Assembly (NCBI GenBank): GCA_002803225.1
Contig: NXFV01000141.1
Span: forward strand, 1 to 64,000
DNA from: Gamarada debralockiae
Lineage: Eukaryota > Ascomycota > Leotiomycetes > Helotiales > Hyphodiscaceae
Direction: 5' to 3'
Length of the DNA stretch: 64,000 bases
The notes under the pieces were generated by a model. It was not told the DNA's origin. It was given only the letters and a program-made list of their open reading frames with translations, and did not search any database. Every line of letters starts with the position of its first letter. Position 1 is the first letter of the stretch. Position numbers and translations under genes: made by a program. Positions 11,556 to 52,039 of this stretch are shown piece by piece.

Positions 11556-13884
11556 TTAAACAATCGTAACTACAGTCCGCTCAAGCCCTTCAAAAGGATC
11601 AGGTCCTAGAAGATTCGGATTCTCTTCATCTCCCCCTAACTTGGGCTGCTCCCAAAGATAGTTCTCCAAATGTACCTTCCGGCTTAGTCTTGACAACAAC
11701 GTGGCCTTCTGAGTTTTTACAACTCCATCAATTATCCCAACTCTCTTATATTTGTTCTGGGCCACTGCTTCCAAAATGAGTCCAAAGCGAATGTCCATGT
11801 ATATAGGACTTGGGCTTGCGGGATCGGGAAGTCGGGCTAGGAGCACGGCTAAGAGCTTCCTTTGAGAGACCTTACTATCTGCAATATCGAATCCTGCGTC
11901 TAGAAATATCGTTTCGGTCTTGCCATTGTGCGTGATCTCGGTTTCTATTACCTTGTCGCACGCAGAGGAGCGGAAGGGGTCCATGACGTATTCTGGGGGA
12001 GAGTAAGAGATCTCGCTCCAATTTCTGACTGATATGATGGGCAAAATGGGCCCTTGCAGTTTAATCCAACCATCTTTGATGCCCCCAAAAGAGTCTTCTC
12101 CTGAAGGCTCCAGTGACGAGTCCACGTAGGTGGCGAGTAGCTCAAAATCCGCCATCATGGACTTCCAGTTGCATCGATCGTAGAAGTTATAGACTGGGAA
12201 GTTTATGGACCCATCCACATACGCCCATGACCAAGATGGTGCGCGGTACGCTGCTGGGCTAGTAAGAGCTTGCAACCCACCAGCTCTGCACCAGAGTAAT
12301 CCTTCAATCAAGCCTTTCTGCCAAATGCCAGCAAAGTACTTGTCACTTGTCGCTCCATACAATGCTCTGGCCAAACCACCCAAGGCAGGAAGTCGGTCAG
12401 ACCCCTTCGTGATGCGCCGTCGAGCATACTCCTTCACCGTCTCATACCAGTCAAAATAATTGATGTCAGTTGTCTTTCCCGGGCTGCGTCCACTGATCCC
12501 AGTTATTGACAGGTCAATCGCGGCCGTCTTCTTAATCTGCTCGAAATGATCACCATCCCGAGCCACACAATCTCCATCTTCTGAAGCAAGCATCTCTGAA
12601 CATTCCCAGTACATTTGCTCTCTGCCAACAAGAAGCATTCGACGAGGCAGGTACCGTTCTTGTAGACACCATGCCCTGGTGCTGAGAGGCTCGACCGGGA
12701 CCGGATCCAGGGTGGTTCTCAATCTTTTAGGATATGGTGGCAAGAGTTTTACATGGATCTGGCCGAGAAATATAGTCGGGGTTTCTCTTGCGCACAGAAA
12801 GCCCTCTGAGTCTGCCGTGGCATTTGATGCACCGATCACAATATGCGCGTGTCTATATATCATCGTCATCTTGGCTGACTCTACCTGCCAATCGTTGAGA
12901 TTATCCTGAATGATGCAGAGAGAGTCGATCCATATGTACTGTATGCCAAGTCCTCTGGTTACGGCTATTGCATCTTGGAATGTCTGTGGCATTTCTTCTA
13001 TCCTGATCCCTTGTTTTCGACCTTCAAGGGTTTCCATTGTCGTGGTAAAAGGTTGACTTAGTCCCCAGCAGTGACTGAGAGCCGCGTATGGTGCAGACAG
13101 AGGAGCTGACTCGTCTTGCTCGCGAAGATAGACAAGGGCTGTCTGCGAGGTTCCAATATCCAGAGCCCGAGTTGGTAGGGGTGCGCTTCTATTATGATCC
13201 CTTTGGCAGCTTCGATGCTCATTTGTACAGACCAAAAGCCAGAACCTAAGCTGATCGAAAACCTCCTCAGAAAATGGATCCGACTCAATCGTTCGATCAA
13301 TCTCAACCCTTCCTCCCGTTGTCCGACCTACAGGAACTTAATGATGCTTAAAACATGACAACGAGTTACTTACCTGATTTACAAGAGATGCGCAACTCGG
13401 CTTCAATGTATCCATACCCATCCCAAGACGAAGTGACCTGACCACCCCCATCGCATGTGACTCGAACTATTGCATGCAATCTCGACTTCTCTTCGTTACT
13501 CGAGCGAGAAGTTCTTGTATTCTTCCACTCAAACTCACTGAGTGGCCAAGCCACAACTTCCAGACCGATCTTTGAATACCAAGAAATTGTCACGATATCA
13601 TCATCAAGATCCTTGGGAGGCTTAGGCCAGTCACCTGAATGCCTCGTGTCTTCTACAAGTTGTCGACGAGCCTCTTGTAGACCCTGGAGCACTAATTTAC
13701 AAAGGACGCAGGATGCTGAAGAGTTGTCCAGTGCTGAAAGGTCAGTGTGCCATGGTCGTGAGCGAGATTTTTCTTGGGATTCAGATTCGGATGAAGGAGC
13801 GGTCAAGAAGGTGGTTGCTAGCTCTTGGAGTGTTTCTTCGACTTGAATTGCACTGCAGATGCCACAGAGCTGGGTTGACGACAT
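11556..13884 (-). CDS. HET-domain protein (heterokaryon incompatibility)
   Basis: Two exons, 13884-13374 and 13327-11556, about 760 residues; the donor GTAAGT and acceptor CTGTAG join in phase 1. The HET domain starts near YAALSHCWGLSQPFTTT and runs through LGIQYIWIDSLCIIQDNLNDWQ, MYRHAHIVIGASNATAD and TRAWCLQERYLPRRMLLVG, all family hallmarks. The N-terminal ~170 residues carry a CGIC ... CVLCKLV Cys pair arrangement typical of the leader region of many HET proteins. Family members trigger growth arrest or cell death when incompatible hyphae fuse. The C-terminal ~250 residues vary between family members and here show no known domain. Confidence 0.9.
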
Positions 13885-23364: not shown

Positions 23365-23690
23365 TGAGCTTGCAGCAGAATTACCTTCGAAGGAATGAGC
23401 TACAAATTTCCAGATGATTCCATGTCAATTTAGGCACTGGTACCAATCCACGGTGGTACAGCGGCCATTGAGATCTCTGTTCCTGAAAGTGTATGAAAGG
23501 AAAGTGGGTCTTTGGTCTTTCTTTAGCGACAACGCGCCCAAAGGTTCAGGCCACGATACTCCACAAGGCCTGTCATGTATTGTGGCTGAGTAGCATGCAG
23601 GCATAAACGGGAACAAGAGCTAAGTTTGTTCCAACTTCCCAGTATTTTCCAATATCCAGTATTAACTCTGGAGGATATCACTAAGAGGCA

Positions 23691-24025
23691 ATGGAGCAAT
23701 CTCAAGCTGCTGATTCAAAGTCCTTGCCTATCCTCTACTCCCTTCTTCGAGAGTCCGACGAGATCCGACTGCTCTCGCTACTGCCTCGCTCTTCCGGCGA
23801 CGAAATAAAATGCTCGATGACATCTGAATATGAAGCTCTTTCATCCATGTGGGGACCCAAAGTTTTCAAATCGATACGAGTCAATGACAGAACGTGTGCT
23901 GTGCGAGAGAATCTTTGGGATGCGCTGTACCACTTGCGGCTGGCAGATGAGAGTCGGGTGTTGTGGATTGATGCGATTTGCTTATATCTTGATCGACCTC
24001 AAACGGAATACAGCTGAAAGTTGAG
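23691..24025 (+). pseudogene. HET-domain gene remnant
   Basis: The frame from 23691 encodes the start of a HET domain (SEYEALSSMWGPKVFKSIRV, VRENLWDALYHLRLADESRV, LWIDAIC). It then changes frame: the expected continuation of the family (DLKxRNTxE) is found one base shifted as IDLKRNTAES before a stop. No downstream HET blocks or C-terminal region follow. I read this as a truncated, frameshifted relic of an incompatibility-type gene. Confidence 0.7.
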
Positions 24026-25426: not shown

Positions 25427-27962
25427 TTAGGGAAAGTGCCCGCCTGAGCTCATGTTACTTCCCAATTTGTCGCTTCCCATTGTAACTCTTAGACGCCCAA
25501 TGTTAGGCGGTGACCTTGCCTGCTCTCTCGAAATAGGTTCTGGTTCCCAAACTGGTCTTGACGGGGTTGGACTCAACATTCCCGAACCATCTCCCTGAGC
25601 TCTCGAATATCCAAAGCCGTAGGCATCAGTGACCATGATAGCCTCTCTCAATTCATCTAACATCTTCCGCACGTCCTCCCTTTGCCCTACGAGAAAGTCA
25701 TAGTCCAGGTTTCGAAATATCTCCTCTTGCAGGCGGAGCAAGATATCGGCCATCCACATGAGATCACGGATCCAGTCAACGGCACCGTTAATGATTTCTC
25801 CCTTGTTTGGTCCCTTCTCTGGAAACAAGTTTGGCAAGGATGACTCTGGTATCGAATTTGGGTGGCCGAAAGTTTGAGAGCTCGGTTTGTAAAGTCGATG
25901 ATGAGGAATTAGATGGGCCATTTCCTGAATCTTTTCGTTGATATTATCCCGTCGGCGTCTCTCAATGATGTTATGGCGCTCTCTCCGCGCTTTCCTTTTT
26001 GCCTCGTCCGTCTCGCTTGAGATCTGGCCGCCTATGACTGAAACAGGCGGTGTGGGAAGCGCCGGATTAAATGACGTTGGAAGACTTGCAATCGGTGTCG
26101 GAGGAAACTCGTTGGAAGGAACATTGGTGTTGAGATTCCAGAAAGGGGATTGGGATTCCACTATGGGATATTTGGAGATAGGCGTAGGTTTGATTTCCGG
26201 CTTTCCATCTGTCAAGCTCAATAGGAATTGTCCGGCTTCTCGCACTCGAGCGACTAATTCGTCATATTGTTGAGTTTGTATAGAAGGAGCACGTTGCTTG
26301 CATGTATCACATTCGTCCTTGGTTGTAGTGTTTTTCTTTTCCAATTCAGTGAGGGCTTCTTCGAGTGTTTTAGTAAGTTGTTTCTCGACAAACAGATACT
26401 TCTCAAGTGTGCGGATTCGTTCTTTTTGATTCTCTTCAGTGAGGTGGTTGGTTGACGTGACAGGACCCAGGCACATAACTGAGGGGTTAGATGGGAGGTA
26501 GCTCGCCAGCAACATGGGCATCGAAATGATCAGTAAAGTTGACAAGCTGTCGAATCCAGCTTCTATCTTGACTTCTTCGGCAGCTATTGGAATACATCGT
26601 AGCCAATCCAGGAGCAAGTCTGAAGAGAGATCACTGGCTTTGACGGTCTCTTTCAAACGAATTGCAAAAGCCAGCCTGGGGAATTTGTCCAGGGATAATG
26701 CGGCGGCTGATTTCGAATCATTGGCTTGTTGACCGGCGTTGCGTTCAAGTTGTGGGCCATCGATATCCTCCATCATTGAGTATTCCTGGTTATCCAAATG
26801 GCTCTGAGCAAAGTTCGAAGCCTGTTCGGGCATTCTCAAGACCGAAAGCTGTATACTCCTCAATAACGGCCGCTCATGTGTAAGAACGAGATGAACGGGT
26901 GCGGGGTGTCGCTCAATACCATCTTCAGGCATGCGAATTTGCGTCCTGCTGAAGATGTTGCTATAGTAAAATTCAGAGTTAGTATTTGCTCGATTAGGAA
27001 ATTGCAATATGTCACGACTCGTGAGACATTCTTATGATGAAATTTGAGGCACCGAAAATACGTACCTGTAAAGTTCCCCAATTGTGAAGCTTGGCCTCGT
27101 GCTCAGAGATCTAAGCTCAATGACCAACGCATTAGTGAAAGAATAAGGTCCGACGCCATTTGCCCTGGAGTTGAAAGCACAGGCGGCGATGAGCTCATTT
27201 GCCTGATTGCCGGAATTGGTGTTGGCACCTCCTGATGCACAACAATCAAGGAGAATCAAGACGTCGCTTTCTGCTTCTTCCAGGACGTTTTGAATGCCGC
27301 TCCATTTGACAGTTGGGCATTTCGCGCTCTTGTTGTTCCTCCAACTGGATCTGATTAGCGTCTCGTGCGGTTGAATAGATTAGTCAGGATACTCACCTCG
27401 TCCACATGAGCGTTCGCTCCCTAGTTAGCTTTCCATGCCCAGCATAATACACAATCTTCAAATGCTCTTTACTTTTCTCCGTAGGTTCCACAAAATCCAG
27501 CACTTTCTGATTTAACTTATGATGCGGATTGTCGTCGGGAATTTTCCAAATTTCGGTATCGAAATGGTAAACATCTCGGAAGACTTCGAACAGCCTCGCG
27601 ATTTCAAGAGAAACTGGTAACTGTGGATCTTCATCTTCCCAGCACAACATTAACACAGAAACCTTGGTATACCTCGATTTCGTCTCATTTGGAAAGACAG
27701 CTTTCGCGGCTGCCTGAAGATCTTGGCCGAACTCCTGGAGATCAATGTGGTGCTGCCAACGGTCCATGTCATGGAATGTTGGAGGTGGCGTGGAGTTTGG
27801 ACTACTTCCATATTGCTCAGTTGACCCTGGACTATCGTCGCTCTTCTGTTCCTCGGTTGGTGGCGAGAAGGGACCAGGCAGCGCTTGGTGGTCTTGCCCA
27901 CTCCAGAGCCAGGTCGGATCCGACTCAAGAGGAAGGGGCGAGTGTAATAGGCGATTCGTCAT
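25427..27962 (-). CDS. Caspase-like peptidase fused to a bHLH DNA-binding domain
   Basis: Exons 27962-27397, 27344-27066 and 26960-25427 give 792 residues, with all phases matching. The caspase-like (C14) fold has VSVLMLCWEDED, catalytic His176 in KIVYYAGHGK and the Cys box VLILLDCCASGG with Cys224 as likely nucleophile. Residues ~282-455 carry the companion region often found behind fungal caspase-like domains (FPRLAFAIRL ... LLLDWLRCIPIAAEEVKIEA). A predicted coiled coil follows (~455-490). Residues ~604-690 are a bHLH: basic region KARRERHNIIERRRRDNINE, helix 1 KIQEMAHLIP, then after a loop GPNKGEIINGAVDWIRDLM. The bHLH lies in the same 526-codon exon as the caspase companion region, so the fusion does not depend on an intron guess. 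A protease-released transcription factor is my inference. Confidence 0.85.
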
Positions 27963-28178: not shown

Positions 28179-29082
28179 TTATGTTACATAATGATTGATA
28201 CATCTGCCTACTCTGTTGCCTACAGCTGTCTATTTCTTGTAGATGCATATAGGCATCTATAGCTACAGTCTTAGAAGAGTAACCCTCTTCCCACCAATTT
28301 GTCAGAATGATTGGTGATCCACCCCGTGACCTGCTTAGATAACAATCCAAAATCGGCTCCAGTTGGGAACGGATACCTCCACCGACCACCTTGATAGGTT
28401 AAAAGAAGTGGCTGTGTTCCAGATAACAGGCATTACTATTCCCCTTCCCCCCCTCCCCCCCAACTTTGAACAAAACCAGTCAGCAAGACAGAATCTTGTT
28501 GACGATCTTGACAGAATTCATAGTCATGTGATTCATCACGTGATCGCTTTTTACGCATCACCAGTTGGGCCGATCTTGCTTAACTCCTTATAGCGAATTA
28601 GAGGTTAGAGCAAAGTCAAGTGATCTAGCCGAGGTCTCTACTCCTTATGTATATATATGCTCTTAGCTAGCCTTTTTCCTTCTTCTTCTCTTTTCCTTCT
28701 TTAGTTTAATATCCTCGTCATCAGCGACTAGCCAGCTAAGGAATAAAGAGGTTGATTTCTCTTGACTTTTGGCCAGCGTCGTGACAATCTTCTCGAAATT
28801 GAACCGGAGTTCATCTTTTGGATCCACAGGCTAACATTTGTTCAAGGGGGATATAGTAGCAAAATTTATATTTAGACAACATGGAAACTATAACCGATTC
28901 TGAAAGGGGCCGGAAGAGGATCCCCTCTCTATGCTGTAGAAGGAACGAAATGCGAGTATAGCGCTTCCCGATTGCGCTGTGAATCAAGAGAGGTAATAAA
29001 TGTATTGTTGGTGATGGAGTGTGAACTGCCTGAAGAACTAGCACAGCTGCGCGCGCGCGCGATATTTATGTTGTCCGGAGGT

Positions 29083-29131
29083 CACGTGTAACGAACCACG
29101 TGTTTGCGAACCACGTGTCCATTGACCATGT
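29083..29131. promoter_or_regulatory. Cluster of three CACGTG cores
   Basis: CACGTG occurs at 29083-29088, 29097-29102 and 29112-29117, and a CATGTG lies near 29128. The 12-mer CGAACCACGTGT is directly repeated with a 15-bp period. A (GC)n run (29049-29061) precedes it. Confidence 0.55.
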
Positions 29132-30935
29132 GACCCCGCTACAATGCTCAGGCTGACTTGTCGTGCTTAAGGCTTAGGGCTCGGCTCAGGTTAGAGCAGC
29201 TTTTTTCAAAAAATTTTAGGGTAATATTTCTATGAAACAGCCTCTAATTTAATAAACGCGCCGTCACCGCCATATTGACCATATATTGCGATATCCTATA
29301 GTGAATTTGACTGTAGGGGAGTGTCTCAAAAACAAGGGGCTAAGAACAGGGTAATTAAACCGGGCAACTGGGTATCAGGTCCATGAAACACATTAATGCT
29401 TGGTTTCTCCTTATATGAGCTATCCAGATCATCAAACAGCAGCGAGAATAGCTTCAAACCGTATAGAACAAGATAATTTGTCTGCGATTTTATGCCTATG
29501 GCGCCGTTTGGTAGGTGACGTTTGTATATAAAATGCTGTGGACTAAAAGTAACACTACTAGCAGGTACTTTAAACTCAATTATAACATCGAAAATAACGC
29601 GATTATATAATTTTCAGTTATTTGGAGAGCTTTTAGCTCACTCTATTCATATTTAAAATATTTACTTAAAAAGGTTAAGGATTGAACAAGGTATTAAGTT
29701 ACAGTATAAAGAAAGAGGTGATATGTTGATAGACAGCCCGGCTGGCAACTTAACACGTGGTAGGGTGCTTGGCCCGACTATTATTAGCGAGTTAAATTAT
29801 AGTTAGCGTCGAATTGACCTTAAAAACATTGTACTGTGACATCGATTAGTATTTTAAAAACACATCGATATCATCATACTGACATAATACGAACTGACAG
29901 ACCAGCTTCACCTACCCAAGAAGAGCAAGGAGGCGTAGGTAGATGGCGGAACGGATATGTCTCATTGAACATAGTTTTCATCTGCCTCAAGCATAGTGGA
30001 AATATTGGGAATGCTAGGATTGCATATTTTCTAAGCATTCCTCGTATTAGGTACTTGCTTCATAACAAGTGTTTTAGGAGTTTGGACTCCTTGGTTTGGT
30101 AAAGTTCTGCAGCTTCTTAGATGATGTCGATTGATATATCTCTGTCCATATTGAGACCTAATCTTTGGCAAGCAAGACAATGTCGAGGTGATCAAGCTGA
30201 GTCTGCTGGCTGGTGGCAGGACCATGACATGAAGATTCTATAACACACTTTTGGTCCACATCTCCTTTGGTCTATGGAATATTCATCTCGAATTCCTTTC
30301 TTCCGAAGAAATCATTCTTGTTGTCTCTCTTCTTGTCATTGTCCCGCCTAATGTCATCACAGACCACTTTCTCAGCAATGCCTTCTCTCTCCTCTATCAT
30401 CACTGACAGTTATCCCATCGTCAATCCCCTATTTGGCGTTCAACCCTTCACAAATGCCCCAAAACATCGACAAATACTCTCCCATATAGAATCATCTCAA
30501 AATTGCACAGGTCATATTATGTCCAAGACGCGACGAAAGCAGAGCAGACCCACATGGTCAGCTTGCTTTCTTCCTGTAGATGACATCTTTGCCGGGACAA
30601 GATTTGGGACAAGACATGCTTTTAATAGTCCTATGGGGAGAGGGAGGAGGGGGAAGGGCGAGATTGGAGCACTTGCTTCACACTGATGAAATGCTAGGAT
30701 GGATAAAGATGGCCGGCTGAAGAGGTGGTGATATTTTTCAATCTTCCTTTCAGTGAACTAGCAGTTAAGCTGCTCTTCTACTATCAGTACGATGGCCTCC
30801 TCCTCTGGTTGACCCAAGACTCAGATATAGCTATCCATAGAGCCGATATATGCCCTGGTCCTTTCCTCATCGTCTATACATAGCATCCATCGTGCCGTGC
30901 CCTAGTATATCTCCCCATATGATCCAAGATACTAG

Positions 30936-46982: not shown

Positions 46983-47200
46983 TGTTGGGATTTCTAAGGT
47001 TCCGGTTCAAATGCATATATTAACTTGACTGACTTTCTACTCTACAGGTTCTACGACCCCTATATATACCTTATTTACCTCCCTACTAGAAGCTTCCAGA
47101 CTATGCTTCTAGGGTATGAGTCACTGTATTTCTAAGCTTTGCCACCCCTGATTGCCACTACTATTGCCACCACTATATTAGTCTTAGGTATTTCCCAACA
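46983..47200. mobile_element. Solo LTR (218 bp) inserted in the NLR C-terminus
   Basis: Ends are TGTTGGGATTTCTAAGG and, at the other side, TATTTCCCAACA: 5'-TG...CA-3' with a terminal inverted repeat TGTTGGGA/TCCCAACA. It is flanked by a perfect 5-bp target duplication CTATC at 46978-46982 and 47201-47205. Size, TG/CA ends and 5-bp duplication are typical of an LTR retrotransposon reduced to one LTR. Confidence 0.85.
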
Positions 47201-50200
47201 CTATCACCTCATGCCTATTCTCTGCAGCCCAAGACAGTAGCGTCTGACTATAGCTAGATTTAGTCTCTAGATTAACGCCCTTCTCGAGTAGCAGCTTCAC
47301 TATTGCCTTATGCCCCTTCCCTATAGCCCAAGATAGTGGCGTCCGACCATAGCTGGATTTAGTCTCTAGATTGGCGCCCTTCTCGAGCAGTAGCTTCACT
47401 ATCGCCTCACGCCCCTTCTCTGCGGCCCAAGACAGTGGCGTCCGACCAGAGGTATCCTTAGTCTCCAGATTGGCGCCCTTCTCTAGCAGCAGCTTCACTA
47501 TCGCCTCATGCCCATTCTCTGCAGCCCAAGATAGTGGCGTCTGACCAGAGCTAGATTTAGTCTCCAGATTGGCGCCCTTCTCGAGCAGTAGCTTCACTAT
47601 TACCTTATGCCCCTTCTCTGCAGCCCAAGACAGTGGCGTCCGACCATAGCTGGATTTAGTCTCTAGATTGGCGCCCTTCTCGAGCAGTAGCTTCACTATC
47701 GCCTCATGCCCCTTCTCTGTAGCCCAAGACAGTGGCGTCCGACTATAGCTGGATTTAGTCTCTAGATTAGCGCCCTTCTCGAGTAGTAGCTTCACTATTG
47801 CCTCATGCCCCTTCTCTGCAGCCCAAGACAGTGGCGTCCGACCAGAGGTGTCCTTGGTCTCCAGATTGGCGCCCTTCTCTAGCAGCAGCTTCACTATCGC
47901 CTCGTACCCCCTCGTCACAGCCCACCGTAGTGGTGTCTGACCAAAGGTGTCCTTGGTCTCCAAATCGGCGCCCTTCTCTATTAGCAGCTCCACTATCGCC
48001 TCGCGGCCATTCTCTGCAGCCCATAACAGCGGCGTCTGGCCAAAAGTGTCCTTGGACTCCAGCTCAGGGCCCTTCTCGAGCAGCAGCTCCACCACCGCCT
48101 TATGTCCGTTACGTACAGCCAACAACAGCGGAGTCTGACAAAAAGTGTCCTTGATATTTGGGTCATGTCCCTTTGTGAGTAAGGCTGTCATCGCTTCTCT
48201 TAGTCCAAAGTATGCCGCAAGGTGTAATCCTGTCATTTGTTTTGGTACTCTTTGACTGTAGCCTGAGTAGTCTCTAGAAGCCATCATAGCCTGGCTGGAG
48301 CTGGAGACCTTGGCTTCACTATTAAGAAAATCTACAACCAATGGCTCCACCTCTGCCGAAGCTACACGGGCATGGTGACCCCAGTTTCGAGCGGCATAAT
48401 CAAAGAAATGATATTGCTTTAGCCGAGTTTCGAAAGCCTCGTCCGTCCGACAGTAGCCTTCTGCGAAAATATCGAACGAAAGATAAGTGAGACATCTTAC
48501 GGCGATATGTTTTTGAGCGTCTGGGAAAAGCTCCGAGCTGGTGTACTTAAAATACTCCATGGTGGTCTCGTGAACTACTCGAATTATGTTGCTTCCCTGG
48601 TCGACCGTGACTAATCCCGCGCAGGAAGAAACGATGTCTTCAATATAGTAGAAGCTCTTTTCGTCCAAGCCCGTTGCACCAGGGTGCAGTTGCAAAGCAT
48701 GTTGCAGTTCATTCGTCGTAAGTGTTCGTTCCGCGTAGAATATCCAAGAAAGCACCTTCTTCGGTAGTCTACGGAGCTTGCCATTCGGCTCCCTGATCCG
48801 ATCGATAGTCCTATTGTAAGCTTCGCTCAGTCCCTCTTGCCCACCTCGCATTTTGTCCAATGCACTCTCAATCTCACGCTCCGAGTATTCATCTTTGAGC
48901 GACCCAACGAGAAGTTTAGCAAGAAGGAACCTTGATAAGCGGTTAGTATAATCAGGCTATCGAGAGGTTATAAGTATGTTACTGACATTCCATTAGCTAA
49001 AGTCGAGATATGAGTTTTGATCTTATGCTGCAGCTCGACTTTATCCTGGACAACGTGTCTCAGTTGACGTATCTGGCCTTCCAAATACTGCTCTATGTCT
49101 CCCTTCTGCGCTCGAATCTCAATTGTTTTAAGGGTCGTCATGCCTCCCAATTTTGTCAGAGCTTCTTGCATTATGTGTGGTCGGAAGGTTGCCAGAATTC
49201 GTGCGTTGTTGGATACGTACTGTAGCGCGGATAGTTTTGATAGGAATATCCCGCGAATGTCATCCTTGCACTCATCTAGAGCATCGATAACAATAAAAAC
49301 CAGATGGTATGTTTTAACGACGGAGGCGAGTTCGTTGAATATGTCCTCATATGTAGGTTCTGGTCTACTATGCAGATGATCGTGGTACCATTTCCGAATG
49401 GATTCGGTGATAGTGGGTTTTTGCAGCACCAGTTGTACGAGTAGAGAAGCAAGTAAATCGCGAAGTCCCAGCTCGTTCTGTTCTGAATAGCGACAGTAAA
49501 GAAATCCTATGCCTGTCTTGCCATCAGTACATGCATCGTCACGCCAATAAGCTTTAAAAATGTCGTTAACCACAATAGCAGTCATGGTTGTTTTCCCAGC
49601 TCCAGGAATCCCATGACAGAGCAGAGTCTTCGTGCTTGATTTCTCTTTCCGCCAATCCATGAATTCAGGAGATGCAAGGAACCACAGCCCGGTTCCAACT
49701 TCGTGATCACTAAATGCCGATATCTGTCTTTGTTTATAGTCGATTGGACTAAGCCAGCGATAAAGGCTTTCGCGAAAGTGCGCTATAGTGGATTAGCAAA
49801 TTGTTTTCACTAGAAAGTAACTAATAGGTAAGACATTCTTTCCTCAATAGAGTTGACTACGTTGTTTATGAGAGTCACTTTCTCATCTATTTTAGTAACC
49901 GTTTCAGAGACTACCAAGATTTGGTTACAGTAGTTCTTTACCACTACGAAAAGCTCAAACGAAAAGACTAACTCTTCATTACTTCGGCTGCAGTTGGTGT
50001 TTTATCCACCTGGGCAGGCGGGATGATCTCAAGAAGTTCCTTCGCGTAGGCCGCCGCAGTGGCTGCAGCGTACCTTTGCCACTGGTCGTTCTTGTGTGAA
50101 TCTGCATAGTCACAGATGCCTCTAATAACTAGACAAGGGAAATTATTCATTAGGCCAGCTGCTTCCATCTCGAAACAAATGCATTCCTCTCCAGTCTGTT

Positions 50201-50990
50201 TTAATAACAACTCTCTCTTCACTGCATCCTTAACGAGAGTGTTTCCCGATGCAATGGTGCCGTAATGGACCTCTGGTTGAGTCGAGATCCGCTCAGAGCG
50301 CGTTGTCGGTCGCTCGGATTCGCAGCCGCGGGAGTCGTCGCCCTGGACGGGGTGATCCGCTGCATCAAACAACTGATCATTTTCGTAGCCTTGATGGACA
50401 TAGCCAGGTTTTCCAGGCTTCGATTCGGCCATCTGCGGATAACGCTTCAACATTTCCCTTAGGAATTGGGGCACTTTAGACGGTTCAAGCTCATGCTCTG
50501 CCTGAAGGCTGGAGAGTGCTTTGAGAAGAGCCTCAGGGGGCATGTTTAGAATGCCTTTGCGCTCAAGCTGATTCCCCTCCTTCGCCTTGACAAGGTCATA
50601 CTGAACGACCCCACCGCTTGTTCCATCAGGCTGACTAACGACGATGTCGCCTAGCCGAATGTCGTAACCTTTCTTTGGCTTAGGGATTCCGGCTCCAATA
50701 CCAACCATAAGACCGAAGCGGATCTCAGGAAAAGACGACAGCATAGTCGATGCAGTAGTTGCTGCAGGTGTAATTCCATACACTCCGGCAGGAAGCGACG
50801 CAATTACTACGTTATGTTCATTTATGCGGCCCCAGGAGTAAGAGTTCTTATCGGTATGAGGCTGCGCGAAGTCGAGAGGTTTTTCGTGCCTTTCGTCGAG
50901 CATCGCGATCGCCGCTGCTCGTTCGAGCGGAAGAGCGGTGATCCATCCGATAGTATACAGGTCACGACTTTCTAAGCTCGGAGAAGTCAT
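47184..50990 (-). CDS. NLR-type receptor: PNP-like, NACHT, ankyrin repeats
   Basis: Exons 50990-49973, 49910-49835, 49766-48987 and 48930-47184 give about 1206 residues. The N-terminal purine nucleoside phosphorylase-like domain (residues 1-~330) has GWITALPLERAAAIAMLDE, GLMVGIGAGIPK and ECICFEMEAAGLMNNFPCLV. A linker with LYRWLSPIDYKQRQISAFSD and GTGLWFLASPEF leads to the NACHT domain: Walker A GIPGAGKTT (417-425) and Walker B LVFIVIDALDEC (to 531). From residue ~857 there are ten full 33-residue ankyrin repeats plus a partial one, several nearly identical. These STAND proteins control allorecognition and cell death in fungi. The last codons and stop lie inside an inserted solo LTR. The intron before the NACHT linker is the least certain junction. 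Confidence 0.88.
47187..48233 (-). repeat. Ankyrin-coding tandem array, 99-bp units
   Basis: Ten 99-bp units plus a partial one. The six or so central units encode TPLSWAAEKGHEAIVKLLLE and KGANLETK with only a few changes per unit, also at synonymous positions, whereas the first three units are clearly divergent. Confidence 0.9.
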
Positions 50991-52039
50991 GGCAAATATT
51001 AGGTGAAGTATAGCGGGATGAATCGGCTACTAAATTTAGCAGCTCATAACCCACGTCGTTGTTCTAGAATTGTATGACCTGAATGAAACCTGGTAGTCTC
51101 CTCGTCGCAAGCTAAGCAAATAGCTATGCAACTTCGGCTAAGACGGGGTGCGGGGTAAGTCTTAGTTGATAGATGAAAATTTGACAAGGGAGAAATGAAG
51201 GCGAGTGATGACCACCAGTGGGTGCACTAGTTGCATTTCATATCGGAATAGTACTTCAAACTCGATATATGAATTAACAAGTAAGTTAAATCAATTTATA
51301 GATTTTAAAATATCTAGATTTCATGTGCTATTGTAGAGTTATTAAAGCATCAAAATAGACATTAGAATTTCACACTAAAATTCGCGAATATTTACTCTTC
51401 TTTTACTTTAGCTTTTTATAACTGTTTATAAACAAGCCATACTCAAATTTTGGAAGCGAAAAATCAGATCCAATGCTCTTCTTATTATAGATCTCAAAGA
51501 ATAGACAAATTAACTTAAAGATTGATTTGTTATTAATTTATGAATTCAACGAGTTTTGGTGTAGTTTTCGCTTATTATGTACCAGTGTCCCACGAATTAG
51601 TGCACCCACTGGTGGACGAAAAACGATGATTGCGTGCTAGATCTCGGAGCGAGGTACATCGGAATATTACCCTTGCAGTGCGCCTTACTGAAAACGGCAA
51701 AGCTGCACGCAAGGATTAATTCAGAAAAGTGGGGCCTACTTATAAGAGACTGTTTCGGGGGAAGCCGGTTTCGAAGTTTACTAGCAACAGCGGCGTTAAT
51801 TGAGACGAATGTGAAGAATTCCTGAGCAGTCAGGAGGCCAAAATGGCTGGTGCAGATTTTGAGCGAGGAGCTACTCTAGGTATCCTTGTGCGGTACAGGG
51901 AATTTCCTCGTTTTTATTGGTCGAGGTTTGCAGAATGACGTGCTGGTGGAGGCTGTGCTGATCATGACCATACAACAAGAATATCAACCGGCACAACTGT
52001 AATTCAACCTCCCAAAACTATCCTCAGATTCCTGGTACA
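50991..52039. promoter_or_regulatory. Shared upstream region of the NLR and G-alpha-like genes
   Basis: About 1.05 kb between two divergent start codons (50990 and 52040). It contains the TIR element. No other motif assigned. Confidence 0.45.
51212..51615. mobile_element. MITE-like element with perfect 18-bp terminal inverted repeats
   Basis: CCACCAGTGGGTGCACTA at 51212-51229 is found exactly inverted at 51598-51615. The 404-bp span is AT-rich inside and has no coding frame. No clear target duplication is seen at the ends. It lies between the divergent NLR and G-alpha-like genes. Confidence 0.8.

Follow-up and report, generated by a model that had tools for sequence, protein, structure and literature searches.

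The window analyzed in this study, the whole stretch of 64,000 nucleotides from contig NXFV01000141.1 of the ascomycete Gamarada debralockiae, raises the question of how a caspase-like protease came to be encoded together with a basic helix-loop-helix (bHLH) domain, and of what such a protein may do in the cell. The initial annotation took the combination of a protease and a DNA-binding partner to suggest a direct switch from proteolysis to transcription, an interpretation that, taken as a whole, was partly supported by the analyses described here.

We predicted the gene on the minus strand from position 27962 to position 25427, with three exons and two introns. The spliced model gives a product of 792 amino acids with no internal stop, the length that had been given before. 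Exon 1 (27397..27962) encodes the N-terminal region and the portion of the caspase-like part containing His176 (codon 27435-27437), exon 2 (27066..27344) encodes the portion containing Cys224 (codon 27239-27241), and exon 3 (25427..26960) encodes the C-terminal portion of the caspase-like part (C-part), a companion region, a coiled coil, a linker, the bHLH domain, and the tail with the stop codon. Both intron 1 (27345..27396; 52 nt) and intron 2 (26961..27065; 105 nt) are bounded by GT..AG; the acceptor of the former was picked by homology. An acceptor for intron 1 located 6 nt earlier, which would yield a product of 794 amino acids, was rejected, as homologues such as P0012 read WTSWRNN and fit the 792-residue version. 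The caspase-fold region spans both introns (approximately residues 82-331; 26813..27719, with limits taken over by offset from the modelled homologue P0010). It is followed on the same strand by the companion region (residues 374-453; 26447..26686), delimited by the family alignment and by its conservation in the database protein P0001, then by a coiled-coil-like helix (approximately residues 455-494; 26324..26443), which was modelled, with low confidence, as a single long helix, and finally by the bHLH domain (PF00010; 25760..25987), located by a Pfam match and by alignment. The caspase-like region therefore reads in frame into the coiled-coil-like stretch and a full bHLH within one predicted gene, so that the join described for the His-Cys pair and the companion region stands. 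The further statement of a single exon is correct for the caspase C-part, the companion region, the coiled coil, and the bHLH, all in exon 3, but not for the catalytic His and Cys, which are encoded by exons 1 and 2, respectively.

As the introns and the ends of the gene are predicted, we considered whether the caspase-like gene terminates ahead of the coiled coil, with the bHLH belonging to a separate gene or to a decayed read-through. Exon 3 lies in one open frame (25427-27031), and a frame of this kind is expected to stay open over 510 codons by chance with a probability of approximately 6e-12, given the base composition. No in-frame Met is present between residues 444 and 629 of the 792-residue product, so a separate bHLH protein beginning after the companion region would need another exon. 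Furthermore, the same fusion recurs in P0001 (480 residues; source given as 'lgn'), which is collinear with the window product across the junction and identical to it at 309 of 443 positions (approximately 70%), counted over a stretch that begins shortly ahead of the Cys, crosses the junction, and stops where helix 1 ends. Over the coiled-coil-like stretch (residues 454-507), 37 of the 54 residues are identical. The P0001 record diverges within the HLH loop, which places its helix 2 outside the comparison; its His lies outside it too. A fusion found in a single assembly had been named earlier as an observation that would speak against the fusion; P0001 carries the same join, and sister genes with in-frame joins were found as well (see below). 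Altogether, we consider two separate genes, or an artefact of the gene model, to be very improbable.

The window product carries His176 in YYAGHGK and Cys224 in LLDCCASGG, and the alignment of LLDCC places the catalytic Cys at position 224, the residue that had been singled out for mutation. Since PF00656 matched the exon 1 frame alone with 15.1 bits (E of 0.019), under the cut-off of 21.4 bits, we made the caspase assignment via the homologues P0014 and P0063, which score above that cut-off, and via the caspase fold predicted for the homologue P0010. In the family alignment, the His column was occupied by His in 77 of the 86 covered rows, the Cys column by Cys in 136 of the 137 covered rows, and the position two residues before the Cys by Asp in all of the 137 covered rows. 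Asp at this position is typical of metacaspases and MALT1 but absent in caspases, and on this ground the protease is predicted to cleave after Arg or Lys and not after Asp. In five homologues (P0021-P0024 and P0145), the position of the catalytic His is taken by Gly (YYGGGGK) although the Cys is kept, and this group possibly comprises dead proteases.

Other assignments of the protease part were examined and rejected. A known metacaspase was set aside because the relatives matching PF00656 score near its cut-off and the 12 PF00656 matches in the own genome do not include the window locus. Raptor/Kog1 was set aside because Raptor_N exceeded its cut-off in this genome on another contig (C844; 225 bits) and the window locus was not among the two matches. 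A CHAT protease was rejected on the motifs, which read YYAGHG and LLDCCASG here, and huntingtin, the sole PDB sequence match obtained with the family alignment (E of 0.0082), was taken as noise. No Pfam match to NACHT or NB-ARC was found in the three exon frames.

The bHLH matched PF00010 with an E of 2.5e-12 over model positions 1-52 of 53. Although the model of the bHLH half is weak (pLDDT of 55.6 and pTM of 0.24), the helices were modelled, and the nearest solved chains were those of MITF, TFEB, and USF. In the basic region, the residues H-E-R, which read the E-box, are kept in both of the fused copies, namely the window product and P0001. A long linker separates the coiled coil from the bHLH; it appears rich in Pro and Ser by eye and is identical at 47 of 91 positions between the two fused copies. 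The same genome encodes a separate bHLH regulator (L016; a frame of 588 codons), the C-terminal half of which aligns with the fused bHLH through the basic region, the HLH, a KGPNKG..NGAV..RDLMWM stretch, and the YSR tail. The fused bHLH differs from L016 in its shorter loop, in a core identical at 26 of 36 positions, and in its attachment to a protease. The core of L016 is identical at 32-36 of 36 positions in 53 database proteins, a conservation partly built in by the HN..ERRRR pattern with which these proteins were chosen. The two fused bHLH cores share 27 of 36 residues, and their caspase C-parts and companion regions share 103 of 112 and 68 of 80, respectively. The fused bHLH is likely a captured copy of a conserved regulator.

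The module of the protease is present at 36 places in the own genome after grouping of the matches. We read 21 of the loci (the window locus and L041-L060), with the joins taken from the DNA, and in eight of them a partner domain with an E below 0.01 lies downstream in the same open frame. Besides the bHLH, the partners are NF-YA (1.5e-22), a methyltransferase (1.5e-15), Vts1 (5.7e-15), Clr5 (2.8e-11), and Myb (6.4e-6), as well as two that score under their cut-offs, WD40 (PF00400; 3.1e-5, 24.8 bits) and Zn2Cys6 (0.0098). At L045, DUF7514 lies in the following frame (unspliced), and weak pieces of a methyltransferase lie downstream of L041. No Pfam match was found in the tails of L048, L054, and L060, in the L057 frame, or in frames further downstream at L042, L051, and L055; the in-frame tails scanned were those of loci other than L041, L042, L044-L047, L051, L055, and L056. 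Further copies of the regulators were found outside the caspase places detected, NF-YA on C138 and C515 and Vts1 on C594 and C1106; the whole frame was read for one separate regulator copy, L016. The NF-YA copy on C515 (G000:C515:12998-13165) lies in an open frame of 844 codons. In the caspase-like protein that ends in NF-YA (L043; G000:C1019), the flanks are nearly identical to those of the C138 copy and the stretch ahead of the DNA-reading motif is nearly unchanged, while the motif itself, GPGGRF in the C138 copy, reads GPGERS.

A similar variety of partners was found among the database relatives. We compiled the first family from the best 120 of 514 matches and the best 120 of 123 matches of a second search; the two large searches in this study (514 and 393 matches) scored only the candidates sharing most words. 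Among the 125 listed rows, precomputed Pfam matches show a partner other than C14 in 31, and 94 have no recognised partner. About half of the 31 were rescanned with Pfam; the partners of P0007, P0065, and P0143 were not reproduced and that of P0139 fell under the cut-off. Eight of the 31 partners are of DNA-binding types (bHLH, GATA, bZIP, C2H2, and HMG box). The partners of the relatives comprise GATA with bZIP (in a protein named atf1), GATA, C2H2, HMG with SAM, a Spa2-type SHD, SUZ, MTHFR, GMC oxidoreductase, NTF2, DUF7082, HET, WD40, and ankyrin repeats, the last three of which take up the same C-terminal position in other family members. No activity is common to all partners, and some database joins, such as those with MTHFR, GMC, and NTF2, may result from misjoined gene models. 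The copies of GATA, bZIP, and C2H2 appeared intact by eye. P0028 carries the caspase-like module with GATA and bZIP (the protein named atf1), and P0033 carries the module with two C2H2 fingers, which we take to resemble those of the carbon repressor CreA. The relatives that we looked up, Cadophora gregata, Lachnellula suecica, and Botrytis elliptica, belong to the order Helotiales of the class Leotiomycetes.

In the phylogeny of the modules (144 modules, of which 43 were labelled and 101 were unlabelled), 20 partner labels required 20 changes, with a least possible number of 19 and a mean of 31 after shuffling. The tree was obtained by a quick search and carries a warning that long branches may meet. 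Four of the ten C2H2 labels (P0003, P0005, P0006, and P0008) were given by likeness to P0009, itself named C2H2 in its record, and two labelled rows, P0135 and P0139, do not reach the cut-off. Among close relatives with labels, the partner is mostly the same, and every partner occupies a clade, or several, of its own. The two bHLH-bearing modules make up one side of a branch; the relative closest to them, P0029, has a different tail. P0180, the module of which is 63% identical to that of the Vts1-bearing L053, carries an HMG box and a Zn cluster in place of Vts1. A second tree comprised 35 of the 125 first-family rows, 18 of the 120 rows of a second branch (see below), 20 loci of the own genome, and the window locus. 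We compared three of six pairs (bHLH, Vts1, and C2H2) segment by segment, and the partner drifts faster than the protease in two of the three. In the fused Vts1 pair, the partner is identical at 32 of 46 positions versus 214 of 241 in the protease and companion part, while in the C2H2 pair (P0033 and P0061) the tail is 90.7% identical versus 90.1% in the protease part.

The second branch was found from the Vts1-bearing paralogue L053 (best 120 of 393 matches). Its 120 listed rows comprise 62 with a homeobox, most of them together with rhodanese, 16 with a C2 domain, two with Myb, one with an HMG box, a Zn cluster, and Fungal_trans, and one with Vts1; the catalytic His is present in all of the 119 covered rows and the Cys in all of the 120. 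Many of the named rows are of Sordariomycetes (Pyricularia and Fusarium were looked up), and the make-up of caspase, homeobox, and rhodanese recurs in many members of that class among the matches listed. Thus, a DNA-binding partner, present in the window gene as the initial annotation had stressed, is not peculiar to it, as the same module is joined to several DNA-binding and other partners. P0246, P0266, and other proteins of the HOX4 class have an N-terminal caspase-like module with both His and Cys. A homeodomain requires the Asn after WFx for reading DNA. In most cases, the homeodomain in the HOX4 class has the sequence WFHHR; among the 71 rows with a residue at the fourth place, one of them plainly misaligned, none has Asn there, whereas the homeodomain of the Phialocephala protein P0196 reads WFQNRR. 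The HOX4 class is reported to comprise MGG_06285 (MoHOX4), pah7, and NCU00100 (PMC5666362), the deletion of MoHOX4 to result in smaller conidia (PMC2779367), and that of pah7 to change only the perithecium pattern (PMC3360767). The word 'caspase' does not occur in the main text of PMC2779367, PMC3360767, PMC5666362, or PMC8406175.

Elsewhere in the window, a HET-domain gene lies at 11556-13337 on the minus strand (E of 2.1e-30), a HET fragment lies at 23685-24017 on the plus strand (E of 1.1e-9), approximately 1.4 kb past the 3' end of the fusion gene, and Pfam recognised a gene of the NLR type at 47184-51026 on the minus strand, whose consecutive frames contain PNP_UDP_1, NPHP3_N/NACHT, a winged helix, and ankyrin repeats. 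Upstream of the fusion gene (approximately 28900-29900) is repetitive DNA with many partial copies elsewhere in the genome. One repeat copy (C27:22943-23277) adjoins another locus of the caspase family (C27:23666). A general Pfam scan of 20 frames in the window recognised no gasdermin.

We prefer, with a probability of approximately 0.42, the reading that the bHLH fusion is a protease-armed sensor, in which the bHLH would serve as a bait or contact point that brings the caspase domains together and switches them on. The captured regulator would be an interchangeable part on a common protease module. What acts on the bHLH as a trigger may be non-self molecules or dimer partners in an altered form, the proximity of the caspase domains would activate the protease as in animal caspases, and the output of the active protease may be cell death or a signalling cut. 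An interchangeable bait is suggested by the resemblance of the bHLH to a regulator kept elsewhere, combined with sister genes bearing other regulators. The sensor is further favored by the C-terminal slot being filled with either WD40, ankyrin, and HET or copies of regulators, by the persistence of further copies, by the fast drift of the partner in two of the three pairs, and by the diversity of partners sharing no activity. The HET gene, the HET fragment, the NACHT-ankyrin NLR, and the upstream repeats were counted on the same side. Against it stand the E-box residues of the bHLH and the apparently intact GATA, bZIP, and C2H2 copies, which a bait would not need, the tail of the C2H2 pair, which is as conserved as the protease part, the recurrence of the HOX4 class in Sordariomycetes together with the phenotypes of its deletions, and the 94 of the 125 listed first-family rows without a recognised partner; that no gasdermin was recognised among the 20 frames scanned was also counted against it.

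The same evidence has to be weighed for the protein as a protease-to-transcription switch, in which activation of the caspase would cut the linker, release or destroy the bHLH, and thereby alter the expression of E-box genes. The H-E-R residues kept in both copies, the proximity of the bHLH to MITF, TFEB, and USF, the long linker, the recurrence of partners of DNA-binding types, including the homeobox in the second branch, and the catalytic pair kept throughout that branch agree with it. So do the deletions of MoHOX4 and pah7, reported to alter conidium size and perithecium pattern (PMC2779367 and PMC3360767). The kept H-E-R residues and the developmental phenotypes thus leave room for a switch by self-cleavage. 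On the other hand, MTHFR, GMC, NTF2, WD40, and ankyrin partners have no known role in transcription, and the DNA-reading residues are changed in two partner types, NF-YA and the HOX4-class homeodomain, so that a bait fits at least as well. We consider the switch somewhat unlikely, albeit close in weight to the sensor. Third in order comes the possibility, which appears improbable to us, that the C-terminal domain acts as an address, bringing the caspase to the complex of a regulator (the dimer partner of a bHLH, the HAP complex, or the Spa2 complex) in order to cut or block it. Such addressing would agree with the fused NF-YA, in which the DNA-reading motif is changed and the stretch ahead of it nearly unchanged, with the oligomerising or complex-forming nature of several partners, and with the further regulator copies that persist in the genome, but WD40, ankyrin, and HET partners suit a sensor better.

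Extending the sensor reading to the whole family, we tentatively propose a class of receptors in which a protease of the caspase fold captured copies of the fungus's own regulators (bHLH, NF-YA, Atf1/GATA, C2H2, Myb, homeobox, Vts1, and others) as integrated baits or contact points, a fungal counterpart of the plant integrated-decoy receptors with a hidden protease in HOX4. To our knowledge, the triggers and outputs of the fungal relatives of caspases are mostly unknown, and a module joined repeatedly to copies of gene regulators offers candidate triggers or targets that can be addressed gene by gene. It also predicts, from the motifs, an unnoticed protease in the developmental regulators of the HOX4 class, for which deletion mutants exist. 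The initial annotation knew of no such system, and we likewise found no description of fusions between caspase-like proteins and regulators in the open-licence part of PubMed Central, among the matches listed.

The closest known proteins are those of the HOX4 class (MoHOX4 MGG_06285 of Pyricularia, pah7 of Podospora, and NCU00100 of Neurospora), which, like the window product, begin with a caspase-like module containing this His and Cys, followed by a companion region and then by a domain of a DNA-binding type. They differ in having homeobox and rhodanese where the window gene has the coiled coil and the bHLH, and no Pfam match to homeobox or rhodanese was found in the exon 3 frame. For animal caspases and the paracaspase MALT1, the identity is 6-14% among the 50 matches listed, and the window protease differs from them in being joined to a bHLH; the Asp two residues before the Cys sets it with MALT1 and metacaspases and apart from caspases. 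The CHAT and S8 protease receptors of fungi bear WD40, TPR, or ANK repeats and are clustered with gasdermins (PMC12881547 and PMC10197012). They resemble the present family in combining a protease with an exchangeable recognition part, WD40 and ANK being found in both. In contrast, the window protein is C14/MALT1-like by its motifs and has no NACHT, many of the partners in its family are regulators, and no gasdermin was recognised nearby (among the 20 frames of the window that were scanned). In plant NLRs with integrated decoys, copies captured from conserved regulators are joined to an output module of an immune type. The window protein differs from them in having no nucleotide-binding domain, and an immune role is a proposal here; by analogy, the captured copies of regulators in the caspase-like family would work in a similar way.
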